The position numbers and the translations under genes are program-made. Positions 29,877 through 38,591 of a stretch of DNA of 64,000 nucleotides are shown here, piece after piece. Numbering within the stretch: the first letter of the stretch is position 1; each line of letters opens with the position of its first letter. The notes beneath the pieces are model-generated. The model was not told the origin of the DNA. It saw only the letters and a program-made list of their open reading frames with translations, and made no database searches. The DNA comes from Bacteroidota bacterium (GTDB lineage Bacteria > Bacteroidota > Bacteroidia > UKL13-3): contig JAIYCU010000044.1 in NCBI GenBank assembly GCA_027487835.1, forward strand, positions 124,001-188,000, in the 5' to 3' direction.

Positions 29877-31016
29877 ATGAGAATTATTTATTTAACTATT
29901 GCTAAATTCAACAAACGTGACTATTTCAGATTTGGGGTTGATTTTTTCAAAGAAAAGGGAATAAATATCGAGGTTTGGAATATTTCACAATTACTTTTTG
30001 CCGAATATCATAACACTTATATCCCACCTGATACTATCGATTATGAGCATTATACCGAATTTAAAGATTATGGGCAATTGAATTCTGAATTAAAAAAGCT
30101 CACAAAAACTGACATTTTAATAGATTTTAATGCTCAATACCTAAAGGATGGTATAAGTAATGTTTCGAACACAACGAATGTATATAAAGTAGTTATAAAT
30201 TTTAAGCCAAGTAATGACGATAATTTCTGGAATGCCTTAATAAAAAAACGTTGGTTGCAAATTTTGCAATTTTGGTTTATTGGTAAGACTATGTTCTTAT
30301 TAAACCGAGGGCAAAAGAAATACAATGGTGTTATTTTAGGAGGATTTTTATCGTATGGCTATTTAAGAATTGAGGAATTTCAGTATCCATATAAAATTAT
30401 AAAAATACATGCCTTGGATTATGATTTGTATTTAAGCCAACAAAGAAATCCTAGAAGTTTACAAACTAATGAATATTGTGTATTTCTAGATGAGGCTGTT
30501 GTAAATCATCCTGATTTTAAAAGTTTTGGATTATTTAATTCAATGAAATTATGTGATACAGAAGTGTATTATAAAGAATTAAATTCATTTTTAGATTTTG
30601 TTGAAGCCAAGTATAAAGTTAAAGTTATAATAAGTTCCCATCCTCGGGTAACTTACGAAGATTCGAATGTTTTTTTGAACAGGGAAGTAATGTATGGAAA
30701 TTCAAACGAATTAATAAAAAATGCAAAATTTGTGATTGGTCACACCTCAAATTCAATGCATTATGCAATCCTACATAATAAGGGCTTGATTTTTTTAGAT
30801 TCAACTAATTATGATCAAAAGTTTAGAAAAATGATTCAACAAAAGGCTTCAATTTTAGCAGTACAAGTTGTAAATTTAAGTGAGTTTAATGGCTCTTTAA
30901 ACCTAGATTTTAATACGAATCAATACCCTAAATTTTTCAATAATTATATAAAAGAAAGTTCATCGAACAAATCCCCATCTTGGGTAATTCTCTTCAATGA
31001 ATTTGTTAGGGGTTGA
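29877..31016 (+). CDS. Putative capsule-type glycosyltransferase (polysialyltransferase-like GT-B)
   Basis: A 379-residue cytoplasmic protein, family uncertain. The C-terminal half looks like a GT-B donor domain: acidic pair in FLDEAVVNHPDF (residues 203-214), HP in IISSHPRVTY (251-260), and KFVIGHTSNSM (284-294) followed by the AILHNKGLIFL strand. Bacterial polysialyltransferases and capsule Kdo-type transferases use a D/E-D/E motif, an HP motif and a Ser/Thr motif, so a CMP-ulosonate transferase is plausible (inference). It is the first gene of the sugar locus, 717 bp after dnaA and 75 bp before the next gene. AT-rich codon use matches its downstream neighbours, not dnaA. Confidence 0.55.
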   Translation: MRIIYLTIAKFNKRDYFRFGVDFFKEKGINIEVWNISQLLFAEYHNTYIPPDTIDYEHYTEFKDYGQLNSELKKLTKTDILIDFNAQYLKDGISNVSNTTNVYKVVINFKPSNDDNFWNALIKKRWLQILQFWFIGKTMFLLNRGQKKYNGVILGGFLSYGYLRIEEFQYPYKIIKIHALDYDLYLSQQRNPRSLQTNEYCVFLDEAVVNHPDFKSFGLFNSMKLCDTEVYYKELNSFLDFVEAKYKVKVIISSHPRVTYEDSNVFLNREVMYGNSNELIKNAKFVIGHTSNSMHYAILHNKGLIFLDSTNYDQKFRKMIQQKASILAVQVVNLSEFNGSLNLDFNTNQYPKFFNNYIKESSSNKSPSWVILFNEFVRG

Positions 31017-31091
31017 AAAATATTATTATGTAAACTCCATTAAAGATGATATTATTTATAAAACATAAATGGATTTTTATCAATTATTAAA

Positions 31092-32018
31092 ATGAAAAAA
31101 GTACTTGTAACATCAACCTCATTTCAAGATACGCCAGGAGAACATCAAATCTATTTAAATTCACAAGGATTTGAAGTTCATTATTTAAGAGGTCCATTAA
31201 AAGCTGAGGTATTATTGCCAATTATTGGTGACTTTGATGGCATTATTTGTGGAGATGATGATGTCAACAGGGAGGTAATTGAAAAATGTAAGCAAGGAAA
31301 TATTAAAGTTATTTCTAAATATGGTATTGGATTAGACAAAATAGATTTAGTAGCAGCAAATGAATTTGGTATTCCCGTAACCAATTGTCCTGGAGTTAAT
31401 CAGATAACAGTAGCGGAGCATGTATTTGCAATGGTACTTTCTTATTTTAAAAATATTATCCATGAAAACAGCATAATTCAAAATGGGGAATGGGTTCGCT
31501 TAATAGGTAGAGATATTTATGGAAAAACTATTGGAATAATTGGACTTGGAGCTGTTGGAAAAGAAGTGGCAAAAAGAGCTATAGCATTTGGGATGAAAGT
31601 GGTAGCATTTGATAAAATTATTGATGAAGAGTTTGGTAGGCAATTTGGTATTGATTATTTAAAGTCAGTAGAAGAATTAATGGCAAATTCAGATGTTATA
31701 AGTCTTAATGCCTCATTAAATCACGACTCAACCGGTTTGATCAACCATAATAATATGGCTCAATTAAAAAGTGGAGTGGTAATTGTAAATACAGCAAGGG
31801 CTGGATTAATTGATCAAGATGTTGTTCTTAATGGAATAGAAAAGGGTATTATAGCTGGTTATTTGACTGATGTTTTAGAGGTTGAACCTATGGTACCTAA
31901 CCATCCTTTTTTAGGTAATGTTAAAATTGTAATCACACCACATATTGGATCTCGGACTTATGAAAACGTTGAAAGGCAAGGAAAGATGTCTGTAGAAAAT
32001 TTGTTAAAATATATTTAA
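31092..32018 (+). CDS. D-2-hydroxyacid dehydrogenase (phosphoglycerate dehydrogenase-like)
   Basis: A 308-residue NAD-dependent dehydrogenase. The Rossmann motif IGIIGLGAVGKEV (about 150-162) is followed by an Asp at the end of strand two (VVAFD), giving NAD preference. Catalytic Arg, Glu and His are seen in VNTARAGLID, DVLEVEPM and ITPHIGS. It is short compared with SerA and has no ACT domain, so it is unlikely to be the serine-pathway enzyme. In this locus it more likely oxidises or reduces a sugar-acid intermediate (inference). The next ATG follows its stop directly (0 bp). Confidence 0.85.
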   Translation: MKKVLVTSTSFQDTPGEHQIYLNSQGFEVHYLRGPLKAEVLLPIIGDFDGIICGDDDVNREVIEKCKQGNIKVISKYGIGLDKIDLVAANEFGIPVTNCPGVNQITVAEHVFAMVLSYFKNIIHENSIIQNGEWVRLIGRDIYGKTIGIIGLGAVGKEVAKRAIAFGMKVVAFDKIIDEEFGRQFGIDYLKSVEELMANSDVISLNASLNHDSTGLINHNNMAQLKSGVVIVNTARAGLIDQDVVLNGIEKGIIAGYLTDVLEVEPMVPNHPFLGNVKIVITPHIGSRTYENVERQGKMSVENLLKYI

Positions 32019-32921
32019 ATGAAAAAGGTTGTAGTTTTTGGTGGTTCTGGGTTTTTAGGAAGCCATATTGCAGATTCCTTAACTGATCTAGGCTATATTG
32101 TGACAATATTTGATGTTACTGAATCGCAGTATTTAAAAGATTCTCAAAAAATGATTGTAAGTGATGTAATGGATCGAGAAGCAGTTAAGGCTGCCGTTTC
32201 GGGAAATGACATTGTTTACCATTGTGCCTCTATCGCAGATATTGCTGAAAATAGATTGAATCCCGTGGAGTCTGCACAAAAAAATATTATTGGTTCCCTT
32301 CATATTTTAGATGCTTGCAAGGAATTTAAAGTAAAGAGATTTGTGTTTGCGAGTACTATTTATGTATATAGTGATCATGGATCGTTTTATAGGAGTTCTA
32401 AACAAGCCTGTGAATTATTTATTGATAATTACCAAAAGGAGTATAATTTAGATTTTACAATTTTGAGATATGGTTCATTGTATGGTACAAGAGCAAATGA
32501 ATTTAACTTTATAAAAAATGCAATTACATCTGCATTGGTTAATGGCAAAATCGAAAGGCAAGGAGATGGTCAAGAGATTAGGGATTATATAAATGTTATC
32601 GATGCTGCTACCTGCAGTGTTGATATACTTGCTGATGAATATCGAAATAAATATATTATGGTAACTGGTCCCCAAACGATGCGGGTTTCAGAGTTACTAG
32701 AAATGATCAACGAAATGTTAAGAAACCAAATATCAATTGAATATTTTGGTGAACCAAAAGAAGGGCATTACAAGATTACCCCTTATACATTTAAACCAGA
32801 GGTTGCATTGAAAATTATTCCAAAGGAATATCACGACTTAGGGCAGGGAATTTTAGAGTGTATTTACAATAATTATGAGGAATTAATAAAGAATGGATCT
32901 CATATTTCGATTAAGCTATAA
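32019..32921 (+). CDS. NAD-dependent epimerase/dehydratase (extended SDR)
   Basis: A 300-residue nucleotide-sugar-modifying short-chain dehydrogenase. The NAD motif VVVFGGSGFLGSHIA (residues 4-18) is followed by an acidic FDVTES. The catalytic YxxxK is found in SFYRSSKQACELF, and the Ser of the triad in FVFASTIYVYS. YGSLYGTRANEFNFI and RDYINVIDAA are typical of UDP/CDP-hexose 4-epimerases and 4,6-dehydratases. The substrate may be a nucleotide-linked or free sugar of the locus. It starts exactly after the preceding stop and precedes the cyclase gene by 2 bp, so the block is certainly one transcript. Confidence 0.87.
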   Translation: MKKVVVFGGSGFLGSHIADSLTDLGYIVTIFDVTESQYLKDSQKMIVSDVMDREAVKAAVSGNDIVYHCASIADIAENRLNPVESAQKNIIGSLHILDACKEFKVKRFVFASTIYVYSDHGSFYRSSKQACELFIDNYQKEYNLDFTILRYGSLYGTRANEFNFIKNAITSALVNGKIERQGDGQEIRDYINVIDAATCSVDILADEYRNKYIMVTGPQTMRVSELLEMINEMLRNQISIEYFGEPKEGHYKITPYTFKPEVALKIIPKEYHDLGQGILECIYNNYEELIKNGSHISIKL

Positions 32922-32923
32922 CT

Positions 32924-33571
32924 ATGTATAAATATTTATCTTATCCTTTAAGTTCTGAAACACCGCTTTATGGAGGCGCGAGTGATATCAAAATTGATCA
33001 AATCAGACAAATCGAAAGGGGAGATACCTCAAACAATAGTTTTTTAAGTTTCCCAAATCACGCAGGAACACACATTGACTTCCCAAATCATTTTATTCAA
33101 AATGGAAAGAATTCTAGTGATTATCCTGCAGAATTTTGGCTCTTTCACTATGTATATACCATTTTTAAAGAATGTAAGTCGAATGAATTAATAGATTTTA
33201 TGGATTCTGAACTTAATACAATTCCAGAGAACATTGAATTTTTAATAATAAATACAGGGTTTGGCAAGTATAGAAATGAAAAAGTATATTGGTACAATAA
33301 TCCGGGATTGCATCCAAATTTAGCCTCAAAGTTGAAAGGAAGATTTAAATCGCTTAGGATAATTGGTTTAGATATAATTTCTATTACCTCTTTTCAAAAT
33401 CGTGAATTAGGAAGATTGGCACATAAAGAATTTTTATCTGAACCTTCAATTTTACTAATCGAAGATATGAATCTAAGTGAATTAAAGAAAAATCCAAATC
33501 AGTTGATTTGCTTACCTTTACATGTTGAAACTTTAGATGGAGCACCTATAACTATAATAGCAGATTTATGA
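32924..33571 (+). CDS. Cyclase-family metal hydrolase (kynurenine-formamidase-like)
   Basis: A 215-residue member of the Cyclase family (PF04199 type). The defining metal motif HxGTHxDxPxH is complete: HAGTHIDFPNH at residues 46-56. Other family members hydrolyse N-formylkynurenine, isatin or act in polyketide cyclisation. Inside a sugar locus the enzyme could open a lactone, hydrolyse an amide or remove a formyl group. Note that a formyltransferase-like gene lies in the same locus (37695-38591). It overlaps the next gene by ATGA (33568-33571), so the two are translationally coupled. Confidence 0.82.
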   Translation: MYKYLSYPLSSETPLYGGASDIKIDQIRQIERGDTSNNSFLSFPNHAGTHIDFPNHFIQNGKNSSDYPAEFWLFHYVYTIFKECKSNELIDFMDSELNTIPENIEFLIINTGFGKYRNEKVYWYNNPGLHPNLASKLKGRFKSLRIIGLDIISITSFQNRELGRLAHKEFLSEPSILLIEDMNLSELKKNPNQLICLPLHVETLDGAPITIIADL

Positions 33572-34209
33572 AAAAAGTTAAAGCGTTGATTTATGATTTT
33601 GATGGTGTAATTTGTGATTCTGTGAATGTCAAAACAGAGGCATTTGCATCAATCTACCAAGAATTTGGAGAGGATATAGTTGAAAAGGTTGTACTTTACC
33701 ATTTAGAACATGGAGGTGTTTCAAGATTTGAAAAGTTTAAATATTGGCACAAACATTTTTTAGATATTGAGCTAGATGAAAGTCAAATTCAAGAATTGTC
33801 TGAGAGATTTTCATCCCTAGTTTTGGAAAAGGTTATAAATGCTCCTTACCTGCCAGGAGCGTTGGAATTTATACAAAAAAATAGTGCGAAGTATTTGCAA
33901 TTTATATGCACTGGAACTCCAGAAAATGAGATAATATTTATTACAGGAGAAAAGAATATTCAGAGTTTTTTTAATGGGATGTTTGGTTCACCTACCAAAA
34001 AGACACAAATAATCAATAAGATTTTACTTGAAAATAAGCTTTTCCCAAATGAAGTTGTTTTTTTTGGAGACGCAGTTACCGACTACAAAGCAGCTTTAGA
34101 TACTGCAGTGAATTTTGTTGGAGTTGGCACTGCTTTAAATTTCCTTCCAAGCAACCATATTAATAGAGTAGAAGATTTTTTGAAGTTAGATATAGAAAAC
34201 TTATTTTAA
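33568..34209 (+). CDS. HAD-superfamily phosphatase (subfamily IA)
   Basis: A 213-residue HAD hydrolase. The nucleophile motif is IYDFDGVICDS (residues 8-18), the cap begins at SVNVKTEAF, motif II is ICTGTPE, and motif III/IV is VVFFGDAVTDYKAAL. This is a phosphoglycolate-phosphatase/beta-phosphoglucomutase-type fold. In Kdo and sialic-acid pathways a HAD enzyme (KdsC, NeuC partner) removes a phosphate from the ulosonate before CMP activation; the same step is a good guess here (inference). It is coupled to the cyclase gene by a 4-bp overlap and precedes the GT42/DUF115-like gene with no gap. Confidence 0.87.
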   Translation: MKKVKALIYDFDGVICDSVNVKTEAFASIYQEFGEDIVEKVVLYHLEHGGVSRFEKFKYWHKHFLDIELDESQIQELSERFSSLVLEKVINAPYLPGALEFIQKNSAKYLQFICTGTPENEIIFITGEKNIQSFFNGMFGSPTKKTQIINKILLENKLFPNEVVFFGDAVTDYKAALDTAVNFVGVGTALNFLPSNHINRVEDFLKLDIENLF

Positions 34210-35028
34210 ATGTTAAAGCATATTAAAAATACAATCAAAAGTTTGACTGAGCTAGTTAAACGCCAGAATTTTAGTGAAGTAACTGAAATAAATCCTTTTT
34301 TGGCTTTTAAGGACATACACAAAGGTGAAAGTGTTTTTATTATTGGAAATGGTCCGAGTTTGAAGCCTGAAGATTTGGATAAAATTAAGGATAGTCGTTT
34401 TTTTACAATAGCCTCAAATAAAATATATAAAATTTTCCCTCAAACCAGCTGGCGACCAAATTATTATACCATTGAAGACACAGGCGTTTGTAAATCTTCT
34501 AAAGAGGATATAAAGCAACAAATTACCTGTCCAATATTTGCTGGGGATTATCTGAAAGAATGGTTAGTTGGCTCCAATAACCCTATTTTTTTTCATCAAA
34601 TTCAAAGAGTTCAACCTCCAACATTGCCTAATTTTTCAACAAACTTACTCGAAGGAATCAATTGTGGAGGTACAGTTACCTACTCAATGATGCAAATTGC
34701 TGTTTGGATGGGTTTTACTGAAATTGTTCTTTTGGGCGTAGATTTTCATTACAAATTACCTAATGAATTAAATGAGGTAAGTGGTTTCCCTGGTTATAAA
34801 GGCTATAAGGCCGATAAAGAAATAAATGCCTCAAACTATTTTGTACCAGACTACTTTAGTGAAACAGAAGTAATCTTTGCCCCAGATATGGAGACATCTA
34901 AATGCGCTTATGCAGCAGCAAAAGCGTTTAGTGAGCAATCTGGGGCCTTGGTTATAAAAAATGCTACGCGTGGAGGGAAATTAGAAGTTTTTGAAAGGGT
35001 AGATTTTGAATCGATTTTATCAAAGTGA
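34210..35028 (+). CDS. DUF115/GT42-like protein, candidate CMP-sugar glycosyltransferase
   Basis: A 272-residue protein. Motif SVFIIGNGPSLKPEDL (residues 41-56) and the later GGTVTYSMMQIAVWMGF, ending IVLLGVDFHY, match both the DUF115/MptE-like domain and the GT42 sialyltransferase fold of Campylobacter Cst enzymes, where GNGPSL forms part of the CMP pocket. The catalytic His I expect from CstII (around a HYIGH motif) is not obvious; the equivalent region reads ASNYFVPDYF. A glycosyltransferase using the CMP-sugar of this locus is therefore a hypothesis. It follows the HAD gene directly and converges with the FkbM gene. Confidence 0.65.
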   Translation: MLKHIKNTIKSLTELVKRQNFSEVTEINPFLAFKDIHKGESVFIIGNGPSLKPEDLDKIKDSRFFTIASNKIYKIFPQTSWRPNYYTIEDTGVCKSSKEDIKQQITCPIFAGDYLKEWLVGSNNPIFFHQIQRVQPPTLPNFSTNLLEGINCGGTVTYSMMQIAVWMGFTEIVLLGVDFHYKLPNELNEVSGFPGYKGYKADKEINASNYFVPDYFSETEVIFAPDMETSKCAYAAAKAFSEQSGALVIKNATRGGKLEVFERVDFESILSK

Positions 35029-35036
35029 AAGTTTTT

Positions 35037-35990
35037 TTAAAAGCTAATCTTGTTTTTTATCTTACCAAGAAAGGTTCTAATTTTTCGTAGGTTTTTTAAT
35101 TTCAAAGGCTTTGATGTCTCCACCACAACTGCTTTCTTATTGCTTTTTTCAAAATTCAAATAAAAATGCTGTAACTCATCGATTTGATTTTTACTTAAGT
35201 ATGTTTGGGCCTTTTGAAAAAGGTAATAACTGTAATTTATGAAACCTGTATTAAAGGATATAAAAATTTGTTTTAATAAACTTGTTAGGTTTTTTTCTTG
35301 AGTGAAATCAAGTGTGTTCATGTCCTTGAAATAGATTGTATTACAAAAAGAAATTTCAGCTTTAGTAAATTCAAATGTAATATCCACTTTTTTCAAATAA
35401 TGTATCATTTCCATGTCAAACAATCTAAAACCATTTTTTAACATAAATGAATGGATTTCTGAAAATGTAGGTTGGTTTTCATAGAAGTAATAGAATTCTG
35501 TTTCAATTTCTAAAAACAAAACGTCATTTATATATTGATTTGCTCCGATTAAAATGTCTAATTCTGATCCTTGTGTGTCAACCTTTAGAATATCTATTTT
35601 CCTCCCATCTATTTTGGCAATATTTTCAATTGTGGTTGATGTGCATTCGTATTCTCCTACAATATCAAATCTTTCAGGATTTAAAAACTCGTTTAGATAA
35701 TTTCTATTAGGTTTTAGAATTGAAGAACAATTTTGTTTGCGACAAACATTGATTTTAATTGTTTCTTCTTTGCCGCTTAAAGCAGTATTGTAGTATTTTT
35801 CATTGCTTTTTTTTCTTGAAACTAGTTTTTCGTATTCAGTCTTGTCTGGTTCAAAGCCAATTATTTGAATGAAATCATAATCCCAAATGCTGTTAGGCCC
35901 ACCTTCAGCGCCTATATCATAAAGGGTGATTTCTTTTAAACCTATGCTTGTTAAGATATTATATAATTTAATACTATCGGATTTGTTCAT
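35037..35990 (-). CDS. FkbM-family SAM-dependent methyltransferase
   Basis: A 317-residue protein on the strand opposite to most of the locus. The SAM-binding segment YDIGAEGGPNSIW with an acidic strand end FEPDKTEYEKLV, and DILKVDTQGSELDILIGA (about residues 132-149), match the FkbM methyltransferase family that O-methylates sugars and polyketides. The C-terminal third (about 215-317) is a helical extension of unknown role. It could methylate the surface glycan made by the neighbours (inference). Its opposite orientation breaks the locus into two plus-strand transcripts (29877-35028 and 36121-38591). Confidence 0.85.
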   Translation of the reverse strand: MNKSDSIKLYNILTSIGLKEITLYDIGAEGGPNSIWDYDFIQIIGFEPDKTEYEKLVSRKKSNEKYYNTALSGKEETIKINVCRKQNCSSILKPNRNYLNEFLNPERFDIVGEYECTSTTIENIAKIDGRKIDILKVDTQGSELDILIGANQYINDVLFLEIETEFYYFYENQPTFSEIHSFMLKNGFRLFDMEMIHYLKKVDITFEFTKAEISFCNTIYFKDMNTLDFTQEKNLTSLLKQIFISFNTGFINYSYYLFQKAQTYLSKNQIDELQHFYLNFEKSNKKAVVVETSKPLKLKNLRKIRTFLGKIKNKISF

Positions 35991-36120
35991 TTAGTTTATT
36001 GATTATTTTGTTTAATAGTGTAATTTAGTACAAAAATAAAGTCAAAAACACTCATTCAAGTCATATATTTGAATAATTTGTTTAAGCTTAATTTAATGAG
36101 GCAGGGTAAGATAAAAAGAT

Positions 36121-36864
36121 ATGAGAAGAAAAGTTGAAATTGGTTCGTGGGTTACCCTAGGACATATGGGAATAACGGAGGTGATGGCTGGGGCTGGTTT
36201 CGATTGGCTTTGTATTGATGTAGAACATAGTGTAATCGATTATTATGCATTACAGGTTTTGATTTCCTCAATTCAATTTAAAAAATGCAGGGCTTATGTT
36301 CGGGTAGGGGCAAATGATGCTACCATAATAAAACGTGTTTTGGACGCAGGTGCTGATGGAATTATTTGTCCAATGATTAACAATGCAATTGAAGCAAAGT
36401 TACTTGTTAGCAATGTTAAGTATCCACCTCATGGAAATAGAGGTGTTGGTTTAGCTAGGGCCCAAAATTATGGTTTGGATAATGGTTTCGAAACCTACAA
36501 AGACTCTAAGGCAAAAGAAGTTATTATTATTGCACAAATAGAACATTATAAAGCAATACAAGAATTAGAGCAAATTATTGAAGTTGAAGGATTAGATGGA
36601 ACCTTTATTGGGCCTTACGACCTTTCAGGTTCTTTAGGAAAGCCTGGGCAATATGATGATAATGATGTAAAAATGATGTTATTAAAATATGAATCTATTG
36701 CTTCCTTATCCGATAAATATATGGGCTTTCATGTTATAAATCCTGATGCAGAATTAGTAAATGAAAAAATAAGTAAGGGGTATAATTTTATAGCATTTAG
36801 TATCGATACCCTTTTCTTAGGTTCATTGTGTAGAAGTGAAATGCAAAAAGTTAATAAATTTTAA
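36121..36864 (+). CDS. HpcH/HpaI-family class II aldolase
   Basis: A 247-residue aldolase of the family that condenses or cleaves pyruvate (or oxaloacetate) with an aldehyde to give a 4-hydroxy-2-oxo acid, i.e. the 3-deoxy-2-ulosonate skeleton. Expected active-site residues are in place: His36 (DVEHS), Arg61 (VRVG), Glu141 (AQIE, metal), Asp167 (IGPYDLSGSLG, metal). The gene is followed after 1 bp by a CMP-Kdo-synthetase-like gene, which makes an anabolic role likely. That is unusual, because characterised members are mostly degradative. The sugar acceptor is unknown. Confidence 0.9.
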   Translation: MRRKVEIGSWVTLGHMGITEVMAGAGFDWLCIDVEHSVIDYYALQVLISSIQFKKCRAYVRVGANDATIIKRVLDAGADGIICPMINNAIEAKLLVSNVKYPPHGNRGVGLARAQNYGLDNGFETYKDSKAKEVIIIAQIEHYKAIQELEQIIEVEGLDGTFIGPYDLSGSLGKPGQYDDNDVKMMLLKYESIASLSDKYMGFHVINPDAELVNEKISKGYNFIAFSIDTLFLGSLCRSEMQKVNKF

Positions 36865-36865
36865 T

Positions 36866-37654
36866 ATGAATATAATTGCTGTTATTCCAGCTCGTATGGA
36901 TTCATCTCGTTTTCCAGGTAAGCCTATGAAGCTAATTCATGGCATTCCAATGATTGGTCATTGTTATTTTAGAAGTAAAATGAGTAGCATTATTAATGAT
37001 GTTTATGTAGCAACTTGCGATCAAATTATTTTTGATTATATAACGTCAATTGGAGGAAAGGCTATAATGACAGCGAATACCCACGAAAGAGCCTCAGATA
37101 GAGCCGCAGAGGCTATGTTGATAATAGAAAAACAGCTCGGTATAAAGGTTGATGTCGTTGTGATGATTCAAGGCGATGAACCAATGACCTATCCAGAAAT
37201 GATTGATGAAGCTGTTGCCCCGTTATTAAAAGATAAACATGTTAAAATAACTAATTTAGTGGCAGATATTGAAACTGTAGAGGAATTTGAAGACCCAAAT
37301 GAAGTAAAAGTTGTACTAGATAAAAACTCAAATGCACTTTACTTTTCCCGAGAACCTATTCCATCCAGAAGAAAAGGTGTACTTGATGTTCCCATGAAAA
37401 AACAAGTTTGTATTATCCCTTTTAAAAGGGACTTTTTATTAGAATATAACGATTGGAGTCAAACCCCGTTAGAGATAATAGAGTCTGTTGATATGATGAG
37501 AATAATTGAAAATGGCCAAAGTATCAAAATGATTCATACAAGCTATAAAACTAAAGCAGTGGATACTTTGCAAGATTTATTGCAGGTGGAAAAATTGATG
37601 AAAAATGATAGCTTGCTAAAATTGTATGGAAGACCCAATCCCAGCCTCAACTAG
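36866..37654 (+). CDS. CMP-3-deoxy-ulosonate cytidylyltransferase (KdsB-like)
   Basis: A 262-residue enzyme from MNIIAVIPARMDSSRF. An earlier in-frame ATG at 36836 lies inside the aldolase gene and gives a non-homologous tail. Motifs of CMP-Kdo synthetase are clear: PARMDSSRFPGKPM (residues 8-21), IQGDEPM (101-107), LYFSREPIP (158-166) and VDTLQDLLQVE near the end. It activates a 3-deoxy-ulosonic acid with CTP. It differs from housekeeping KdsB at sugar-proximal places: the region usually reading HLGIYGYR is QVCIIPFKR. The substrate may thus not be Kdo. It follows the aldolase by 1 bp, strongly coupling the two steps. Confidence 0.87.
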   Translation: MNIIAVIPARMDSSRFPGKPMKLIHGIPMIGHCYFRSKMSSIINDVYVATCDQIIFDYITSIGGKAIMTANTHERASDRAAEAMLIIEKQLGIKVDVVVMIQGDEPMTYPEMIDEAVAPLLKDKHVKITNLVADIETVEEFEDPNEVKVVLDKNSNALYFSREPIPSRRKGVLDVPMKKQVCIIPFKRDFLLEYNDWSQTPLEIIESVDMMRIIENGQSIKMIHTSYKTKAVDTLQDLLQVEKLMKNDSLLKLYGRPNPSLN

Positions 37655-37694
37655 AATTTAATTCAATATTCTCTTCTAAACATTTGTTTTATTT

Positions 37695-38591
37695 ATGAAA
37701 GTAACACTTTATTTAATGACCCAAAAAGGTTATGAAGTATTAAAGGCATTAATTCAAAACAAATTTATTGAGTTAGTATCTGAGGTTATTATTGGAAGAG
37801 ATAAGCATATTCAAAAGGATTATGCTGATGATTTAATATCTATTTGTAAATCAAATAACATCAAATTTTATGAACGTAACAGCGGATTTATTTCGGAATC
37901 TGACTATGAAATTGCAATTTCTTGGCGTTGGCTAATTTCGCCAAAACCTCTTTCGAAATTGATAGTGTTACACGATTCAATTCTGCCTAAATATCGAGGC
38001 TTTGCACCGTTAGTAAATATGTTAATCAATAAGGAAACAGAAATTGGTGTTTCAGCAATCTTTGCCTCAGAAGAATATGATACTGGGGAAATAATTTCCC
38101 AATCTTCAACCCAAATAGAATACCCTATTACAATTGCAGAGGCAATAGACTTGATTACTAAGAACTATGTAGAAGTTATAATTAATATTTTCACTGGTTT
38201 TGTTAATGGTTTTGAAATTTCACCTATAAAACAAAACGAGGAATTAGCTACCTACAGTTTATGGCTTAATGAAGATGATTATTTAATTAACTGGAAAAAA
38301 GATGCCAATGAAATCCTTAGACTAATAAATGCGGTTTCATTTCCATATAAAGGAGCATCCACATTTATTAATGGGAAACAAAAGGTTAGAATAATTGAAG
38401 CTGAGTTAGAGCCAGATGTTAAAATAGAAAATCGTTCAGAGGGGAAAGTGATATTTGTAAGAAATCAATTCCCTATTGTAGTTTGCGGGTCGGGTTTAAT
38501 TCGACTAAAAAAGGTATATGATGAGGAAACTGGGTCCGAAATTATACCTTTAAAAAACTTCAGAGTAAAATTTTCTTCTCAACTATGTTAA
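37695..38591 (+). CDS. Formyltransferase-fold protein (sugar N-formyltransferase-like) lacking the catalytic Asn
   Basis: A 298-residue protein with the N10-formyl-THF transferase fold. The loop VLHDSILPKYRGFAP (residues 91-105) and EEYDTGEII (126-134) align with the Asn-x-His ... Asp triad of methionyl-tRNA and sugar formyltransferases. His93 and Asp129 are present at the standard 36-residue spacing, but the Asn position is Val91. The C-terminal subdomain (about 205-298) resembles the FMT_C barrel. It may formylate an amino sugar of the locus or have changed chemistry (inference). The 3' end overlaps the converging membrane gene by 4 bp. Confidence 0.78.
   Translation: MKVTLYLMTQKGYEVLKALIQNKFIELVSEVIIGRDKHIQKDYADDLISICKSNNIKFYERNSGFISESDYEIAISWRWLISPKPLSKLIVLHDSILPKYRGFAPLVNMLINKETEIGVSAIFASEEYDTGEIISQSSTQIEYPITIAEAIDLITKNYVEVIINIFTGFVNGFEISPIKQNEELATYSLWLNEDDYLINWKKDANEILRLINAVSFPYKGASTFINGKQKVRIIEAELEPDVKIENRSEGKVIFVRNQFPIVVCGSGLIRLKKVYDEETGSEIIPLKNFRVKFSSQLC

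Follow-up and report, generated by a model that had tools for sequence, protein, structure and literature searches.

A recurrent aldolase–cytidylyltransferase gene module as a candidate route to activated ulosonic acids in a Bacteroidota genome

How is the carbon skeleton of a surface ulosonic acid built at a locus that encodes an enzyme to activate such a sugar and none of the synthases known to make one? Ulosonic acids activated with cytidine monophosphate (CMP), such as the sialic acids, 3-deoxy-D-manno-oct-2-ulosonic acid (Kdo) and their relatives, are major surface sugars, and to our knowledge the known pathways to them all use synthases dependent on phosphoenolpyruvate (PEP). The question is raised by positions 29877-38591 of the window, by which we mean the whole analyzed stretch of 64,000 nucleotides (positions 124,001 to 188,000 of contig JAIYCU010000044.1, GenBank assembly GCA_027487835.1, a Bacteroidota bacterium of the UKL13-3 lineage). 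Here an aldolase gene of the HpcH/HpaI type ends at 36864 and the gene of a KdsB-like CMP-sugar synthetase starts at 36866, leaving the 1-bp gap that the initial annotation had reported. That annotation also held that the locus carries no PEP-dependent synthase, and indeed neither NeuB nor KdsA is encoded in it; a dedicated KdsA or NeuB gene beside the synthetase, the hallmark of the classical Kdo, sialic, legionaminic and pseudaminic acid pathways, is therefore missing. Judging from the sequence evidence, we consider it likely that the genes here specify a route to a CMP-activated ulosonic acid, with a metal-dependent HpcH/HpaI-type aldolase in place of the PEP-dependent NeuB or KdsA. The gene content, its conservation, the residue signatures and the absence of a PEP-dependent synthase, on which this reading is built, are direct observations.

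Among 395 Bacteroidota genomes we found aldolases at 61-31% identity, and the aldolase of this module (the aldolase, the synthetase and their recurrent partners) was missing from almost every genome of the bacterium's own family, where only distant aldolases were found. Scanning GTDB genomes with a profile brought up at least 407 relatives of the aldolase, and the best 80 of these, with taxa taken from record titles, belong to Bacteroidota, Nitrosomonas/Nitrosospira, Campylobacterota, Desulfobacterota, Omnitrophota, Chloroflexota, Bacillota, Nitrospirota, Bacteriovoracaceae, Deferribacteraceae and archaea. Used as a single-sequence query against the genome and viral contig collections, the aldolase gave no matches; an alignment query did. 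The open reading frames of about 100 loci were clustered and annotated with hidden Markov models made from the clusters. Removal of two duplicates and seven outgroup loci left 87 distinct loci, the window counted, in which neighbors were recorded within 8.5 kb of the aldolase. Since about a quarter of the loci belong to ammonia-oxidizing bacteria and the loci are thus not independent, counts without ammonia oxidizers are also given where it matters.

A cytidylyltransferase, either KdsB-like or NeuA/PseF-like, neighbors the aldolase in 86 of the 87 loci, which span roughly a dozen phyla of bacteria and archaea; in 64 of them the two genes share a strand and are separated by less than 300 bp. 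In the sole locus lacking one (L120) the aldolase is at the contig end, where the locus begins. Also recurrent are a 2-hydroxyacid dehydrogenase (77 loci), a short-chain dehydrogenase/reductase (SDR; 60 loci) and a HAD phosphatase (54 loci), while KdsA was found in none. The initial annotation had suggested looking across genomes for aldolase, cytidylyltransferase, cyclase and HAD genes unaccompanied by NeuB or KdsA; aldolase and cytidylyltransferase without either synthase is the prevailing arrangement, apart from a few NeuB-like genes to which we return. As a control, a cytidylyltransferase was present in the 1.5-kb flanks of 0/27 other HpcH-family genes of the phylum. In the reverse test, eight of nine KdsB-like genes with the module signature in the 395 genomes had the aldolase in their locus. 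When nitrifiers were left out, the synthetase was KdsB-like in 35 loci and NeuA/PseF-like in 35, some loci having both; the NeuA/PseF-like synthetase of a sister locus scores 97 bits to PseF, with a cut-off of 205.7. Our best argument that the aldolase product is the compound activated with CMP is this occurrence of two synthetase families with a single aldolase subfamily.

Several loci illustrate how the module is organized. On a plasmid of Acuticoccus (Alphaproteobacteria), genes for the aldolase, an acylneuraminate cytidylyltransferase, a phosphoglycerate-dehydrogenase-like protein, a HAD protein and an NAD(P)-oxidoreductase lie in a row. In Nitrosomonas, Nitrosospira and relatives (L088, L089, L101-L128), N. 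europaea included, the KdsB-like synthetase, aldolase, 2-hydroxyacid dehydrogenase, SDR and HAD genes form one run, which in many of them also contains a 6-phosphogluconolactonase. Genes for LIC12162-family transferases (518 bits to TIGR04331 in L114) and for flippase-like proteins are found repeatedly beside the module (L051, L063, L080, L086, L099, L100, L114). Aldolase relatives are also encoded on IMG/VR contigs of 4-548 kb (L204-L256), nearly all with the histidine at position 204 described below; a cytidylyltransferase is nearby in 35 of these 53 loci, often with SIS-domain or MptE-like genes. Their viral origin is as given by the collection, and hallmark evidence in the stretches is thin. 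Isolated phages yielded only weak relatives.

The aldolase of the window, the only PF03328 match in its genome, scores 109.1 bits to this profile (cut-off 25), which, together with the active-site residues given next, places it in the HpcH/HpaI class II family. Its nearest solved relatives are the catabolic HpaI and YfaU, and alignment to them bore out that its active site is complete: the catalytic and metal-binding residues Asp33, His36, Arg61, Glu141 and Asp167 are all kept, and they are conserved throughout the subfamily. Fold family and these residues are what the module aldolase has in common with the HpcH/HpaI, GarL and YfaU aldolases. It differs from them in its biosynthetic context, in an invariant histidine at the position of E. 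coli HpaI Leu212, and in scores far under the equivalog cut-offs (174 bits vs. 368.8 for TIGR02311 HpaI, 136 vs. 406.75 for GarL, and 138.9 vs. 441 for the YfaU type). This residue, His204, also aligns with YfaU Leu216 and is found in 88 of 88 module aldolases; seven of the eight others aligned, a set that includes two divergent aldolases with a synthetase nearby (L045 and L047), have Phe, Leu or Ile. Its counterpart in A. baumannii HpaI, Leu214, is seen in the structure of that enzyme to line the aldehyde site (PMC8560999). C3 of hydroxypyruvate is contacted by a Phe in the active site of S. wittichii HpcH (PMC7610986). By its numbering this Phe would occupy the position of His204, F210 variants being listed in a further study (PMC11194214).

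The KdsB-like synthetase narrowly misses the cut-off of TIGR00466 (KdsB), with 153.6 vs. 155.2 bits, where the housekeeping KdsB of the same genome reaches 221.3. We compared 60 module KdsB-like proteins with 30 housekeeping KdsBs, using E. coli K5 numbering, and in a FastTree phylogeny the 60 form one clade apart from the 30 (support 0.96). The catalytic Lys20 and the two Mg-binding residues Asp99 and Asp226 are present in 100% of both sets; the roles of these residues and the binding of Kdo by the C-terminal domain of KdsB have been described (PMC3149649). Fifteen columns discriminate between the sets, and the module changes, which hold nearly without exception, include H173Q, Y177I, E202D, Q203M, T125N and Asp52 to Cys, among others. 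Thus, His173, Tyr177, Glu202 and Gln203, fixed in housekeeping KdsB, are replaced by Q173, I177, D202 and M203 in the window protein and in nearly all module members. About half of the changed positions fall in the sugar-binding C-terminal domain, a domain placement and not proof of contact with Kdo. The divergence from housekeeping KdsB in sugar-proximal motifs noted in the initial annotation is in line with H173Q, Y177I, Q203M and the other changes in this domain.

The same arrangement is found with an aldolase unrelated to the HpcH/HpaI type. One further member of the genus (G007, L159:6690-10603) has an aldolase-like gene of the HMGL type (PF00682), a KdsB-like synthetase and a HAD gene of the same family as that of the window in a row, with an MptE-like gene adjoining. 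The triple is present in five further genomes (L257, L261-L264), six loci in total, with a synthetase that is KdsB-like or NeuA-like. In three more loci an HMGL gene adjoins the HpcH aldolase, with a synthetase in two of the three. Such a swap of one aldolase for another beside a synthetase and a phosphatase fits the logic of the proposed pathway.

Every reaction, substrate and step order of this pathway is something we infer. The HpcH/HpaI aldolase would condense an aldehyde with a 2-oxo acid of three carbons, pyruvate or hydroxypyruvate, to give an ulosonate or ulosonate phosphate, the HAD phosphatase would strip the phosphate, and the KdsB-like enzyme would couple the ulosonate to CMP, using cytidine triphosphate. 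MptE/DUF115-like or GT-B-like transferases would then place the sugar on a surface glycan. The SDR and the lactonase-like hydrolase would be part of an exchangeable cassette (cassette A) that may supply or modify the acceptor, and the 2-hydroxyacid dehydrogenase is part of the core. As the aldol donor, hydroxypyruvate is a serious alternative to pyruvate: an invariant His204 at a donor/acceptor-pocket position, together with a partner resembling glycerate and phosphoglycerate dehydrogenases, would make it credible. For the 2-hydroxyacid dehydrogenase family, oxidation of an aldonate would be just as plausible.

The partner genes bear on these options. Cassette A, SDR plus HAD as in the window, was found in 49 loci. 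A second set, cassette B, was found in 19 (among them L031, L034, L035, L056, L057, L066, L069, L070, L073 and L097) and comprises a Gfo/Idh oxidoreductase, a GmhA-like isomerase, a classical SDR and an AroB-related cyclizing phospholyase (TIGR04425, 463 bits in L069), hinting at a carbocyclic building block; YhcH, related to N-acetylneuraminate anomerase and ulosonate-anomerase-like, recurs in these loci. The two cassettes occur together in one locus only (hypergeometric P 2e-7, or 3e-6 without nitrifiers, uncorrected for relatedness). In the aldolase tree as in that of the 2-hydroxyacid dehydrogenase, loci with either cassette are dispersed, which points to aldolase, synthetase and 2-hydroxyacid dehydrogenase as the shared core; a tie of the dehydrogenase to cassette A alone was rejected, as its tree mixes A and B loci. 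The nearest relatives of the dehydrogenase are glycerate/glyoxylate and phosphoglycerate dehydrogenases, and its catalytic R/E/H residues are invariant across loci. Within the 49 cassette-A loci, the PF04199 hydrolase and a 6-phosphogluconolactonase (TIGR01198, 167 bits, over the cut-off) occur in 17 each and never together (P 9e-5; 0.015 without nitrifiers), and in Bacteroidota one or the other fills the same operon slot. The shared slot and the mutual exclusion suggest that the PF04199 enzyme may be a lactonase. A more specific version of the proposed pathway is possible, though we hold it only tentatively: hydroxypyruvate from the glycerate-dehydrogenase-like enzyme would act as the nucleophile, giving a CMP-ulosonic acid that keeps its C3 hydroxyl and is not 3-deoxy, and two exchangeable cassettes, one linear and one with the AroB-related cyclizing enzyme, would feed different aldehydes to one core. 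If true, this C3-hydroxyl CMP-ulosonate would represent a class of activated sugar distinct from the 3-deoxy-ulosonates that are known to derive from PEP.

The cassettes also allow the skeleton to be read as the outcome of oxidation. Oxidation of a sugar phosphate by the SDR would give a lactone, which the PF04199 hydrolase or 6-phosphogluconolactonase would open; the 2-hydroxyacid dehydrogenase would produce a 2-keto-aldonate, and HAD and the CMP synthetase would dephosphorylate and activate it, leaving the aldolase as an epimerase (by retro-aldol and then aldol reaction) or a chain trimmer. The exclusive use of one slot by the two hydrolases in cassette-A loci would suit this scheme, as would the membership of 2-ketogluconate reductases in the 2-hydroxyacid dehydrogenase family. 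However, cassette-B loci are without the SDR and usually without HAD and still retain aldolase, synthetase and 2-hydroxyacid dehydrogenase, and the SDR is nearer to sugar-nucleotide 4-epimerases than to aldose dehydrogenases, so we regard this route as unlikely.

The KdsB-like enzyme might instead activate Kdo or a NeuB product made elsewhere, with the aldolase an unrelated catabolic or salvage enzyme. Precursors could in principle be shared, as the genome encodes KdsA/DAHP-synthase family members at C41:183418 and C1:162146, away from the locus, and NeuB at C20:225848. But a separate cytidylyltransferase accompanies NeuB at a distance of about 2 kb (C20:228017), a canonical KdsB is present (C20:35334, 221 bits to TIGR00466), residues that are fixed in the housekeeping KdsBs are replaced in the module clade, and the pairing with the aldolase holds in 86 of 87 loci with two flavors of synthetase, which together make this explanation very improbable. 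Least probable is that the aldolase degrades a glycan or sugar acid, in the role of HpaI, GarL or YfaU, and merely happens to lie in a polysaccharide cluster: its nearest solved relatives are indeed catabolic, but it scores far below their equivalog cut-offs, has His204 where they have Leu, and recurs among sugar-activation and glycan genes. The initial annotation had named three findings that would speak against it, namely a purely degradative aldolase, a dedicated NeuB or KdsA partner elsewhere in the genome, and a KdsB-like enzyme that is the only one to activate Kdo. In close to 90 loci the aldolase is found among biosynthetic genes, and the canonical kdsA and kdsB genes, whose presence the annotation had asked about, and the NeuB with a cytidylyltransferase of its own argue against the other two.

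Several points weigh against an aldolase-based synthesis. A NeuB-like gene lies within 8.5 kb of the aldolase in eight of the 87 loci, and one module-type KdsB-like gene (G091/L167) has no aldolase within 1.5 kb and no aldolase match in its genome. The aldolase could run in the cleavage direction or epimerize by retro-aldol and aldol reactions. A simple scheme of pyruvate plus aldehyde accommodates the SDR, the lactonase-like hydrolase and the 2-hydroxyacid dehydrogenase only with added assumptions. Finally, the enzyme activities, metabolite and glycan are all predicted from sequence.

All ten open reading frames predicted beforehand for the locus were recovered at the same coordinates (Table 1). 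Those between 31092 and 34209 are closely packed, either spaced by 0-2 bp or overlapping by 4 bp. GC content is 28-32% across the stretch and about 33-38% in the flanks; low GC is common for glycan islands.

Table 1. Genes of the locus, in window coordinates, with their proposed assignments.
Position	Strand	Assignment	Family or profile	Remarks
29877..31016	+	Candidate GT-B glycosyltransferase		No family match; AlphaFold2 pLDDT 66, low confidence
31092..32018	+	D-2-hydroxyacid dehydrogenase, glycerate/phosphoglycerate-dehydrogenase-like	Pfam/NCBIfam	Core partner
32019..32921	+	Extended SDR	PF01370	Cassette A
32924..33571	+	PF04199 ("cyclase") metal hydrolase, proposed lactonase	PF04199	HxGTHxDxPxH motif kept
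33568..34209	+	HAD phosphatase (HAD_2)	PF13419	DxD motif kept
34210..35028	+	MptE/DUF115-like protein, candidate CMP-ulosonate transferase	PF01973
35037..35990	-	FkbM-type methyltransferase	PF05050	Accessory; strand opposite to the other genes
36121..36864	+	HpcH/HpaI-family class II aldolase, module subfamily; proposed skeleton-forming enzyme	PF03328	His204 signature
36866..37654	+	KdsB-like CMP-ulosonate synthetase	PF02348	Separate clade; in-frame GTG open reading frame starts at 36836
37695..38591	+	Divergent formyltransferase-like protein	PF02911/PF00551	Outside the conserved module

The neighbors listed in the initial annotation were confirmed in part. Pfam and NCBIfam matches support the HAD, 2-hydroxyacid dehydrogenase, SDR, PF04199, methyltransferase and transferase-like genes, the GT-B-like one by its structural model only, whereas the formyltransferase-like gene and the FkbM methyltransferase lie outside the conserved core. 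Foldseek matches of the GT-B-like model are GT-B enzymes and UDP-GlcNAc 2-epimerases, and phmmer found relatives of the protein in three surveyed loci (L080, L082, L090); those of the MptE/DUF115-like protein are in 14, the window counted, and those of the formyltransferase-like protein in no other aldolase locus. In the latter the usual active-site N-x-H reads V-L-H by eye and the N-terminal part is outside the Pfam domain match; formyl transfer is possibly altered or lost. The nearest solved relatives of the SDR are UDP-sugar 4-epimerase-like, and an assignment as a 4,6-dehydratase was rejected by eye, the usual TDE motif being absent. The PF04199 hydrolase falls below the equivalog cut-off of TIGR03035 (kynurenine formamidase/arylformamidase), with 57.5 vs. 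223.05 bits.

Compared with known systems, the end-product class and the synthetase fold are familiar, and the skeleton-forming enzyme and the sugar are the new part. Like the Kdo pathway (KdsD-KdsA-KdsC-KdsB), the module would combine C-C bond formation, dephosphorylation by a HAD enzyme and CMP activation by a KdsB-family protein; unlike it, the module has an HpcH/HpaI aldolase for the PEP-dependent KdsA, a KdsB-like enzyme of a separate clade, a different HAD, and additional dehydrogenases and a hydrolase. With the sialic, legionaminic and pseudaminic acid pathways (NeuB, NeuA/LegF/PseF) it shares the CMP-ulosonate end product, here predicted, a NeuA/PseF-like synthetase in sister loci and MptE/DUF115-like proteins nearby, but most module loci have no NeuB, and no dedicated enzymes for hexosamine-derived precursors were recognized in the module. 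NanA, a Schiff-base aldolase of class I, belongs to a different family and is catabolic in vivo. When used for synthesis, NanA or Kdo aldolase offers a parallel in making an ulosonate from pyruvate and an aldose without PEP, although no NanA-type gene was recognized in the locus. Aldolase and CMP synthetase together are an established in vitro route to CMP-sialic acid (PMC7729866). In the open-access literature we found no description of an aldolase-based CMP-ulosonate pathway, which is weak evidence, subscription papers being outside the search, and nothing relevant on pentulosonic-acid capsules or Klebsiella K38.

If the proposed pathway exists, a class of surface sugars would so far have been left unassigned in Bacteroidota, ammonia oxidizers, Campylobacterota, Desulfobacterota, Omnitrophota, Bacillota, Chloroflexota and some archaea. 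Many genes now annotated as "kdsB", "neuA" or "4-hydroxy-2-oxoheptanedioate aldolase" would be misnamed, and pathway prediction based on NeuB and KdsA would overlook the organisms that carry them. The culturable species with the module, Nitrosomonas europaea, Nitrosospira multiformis and Syntrophomonas wolfei, offer concrete test cases.

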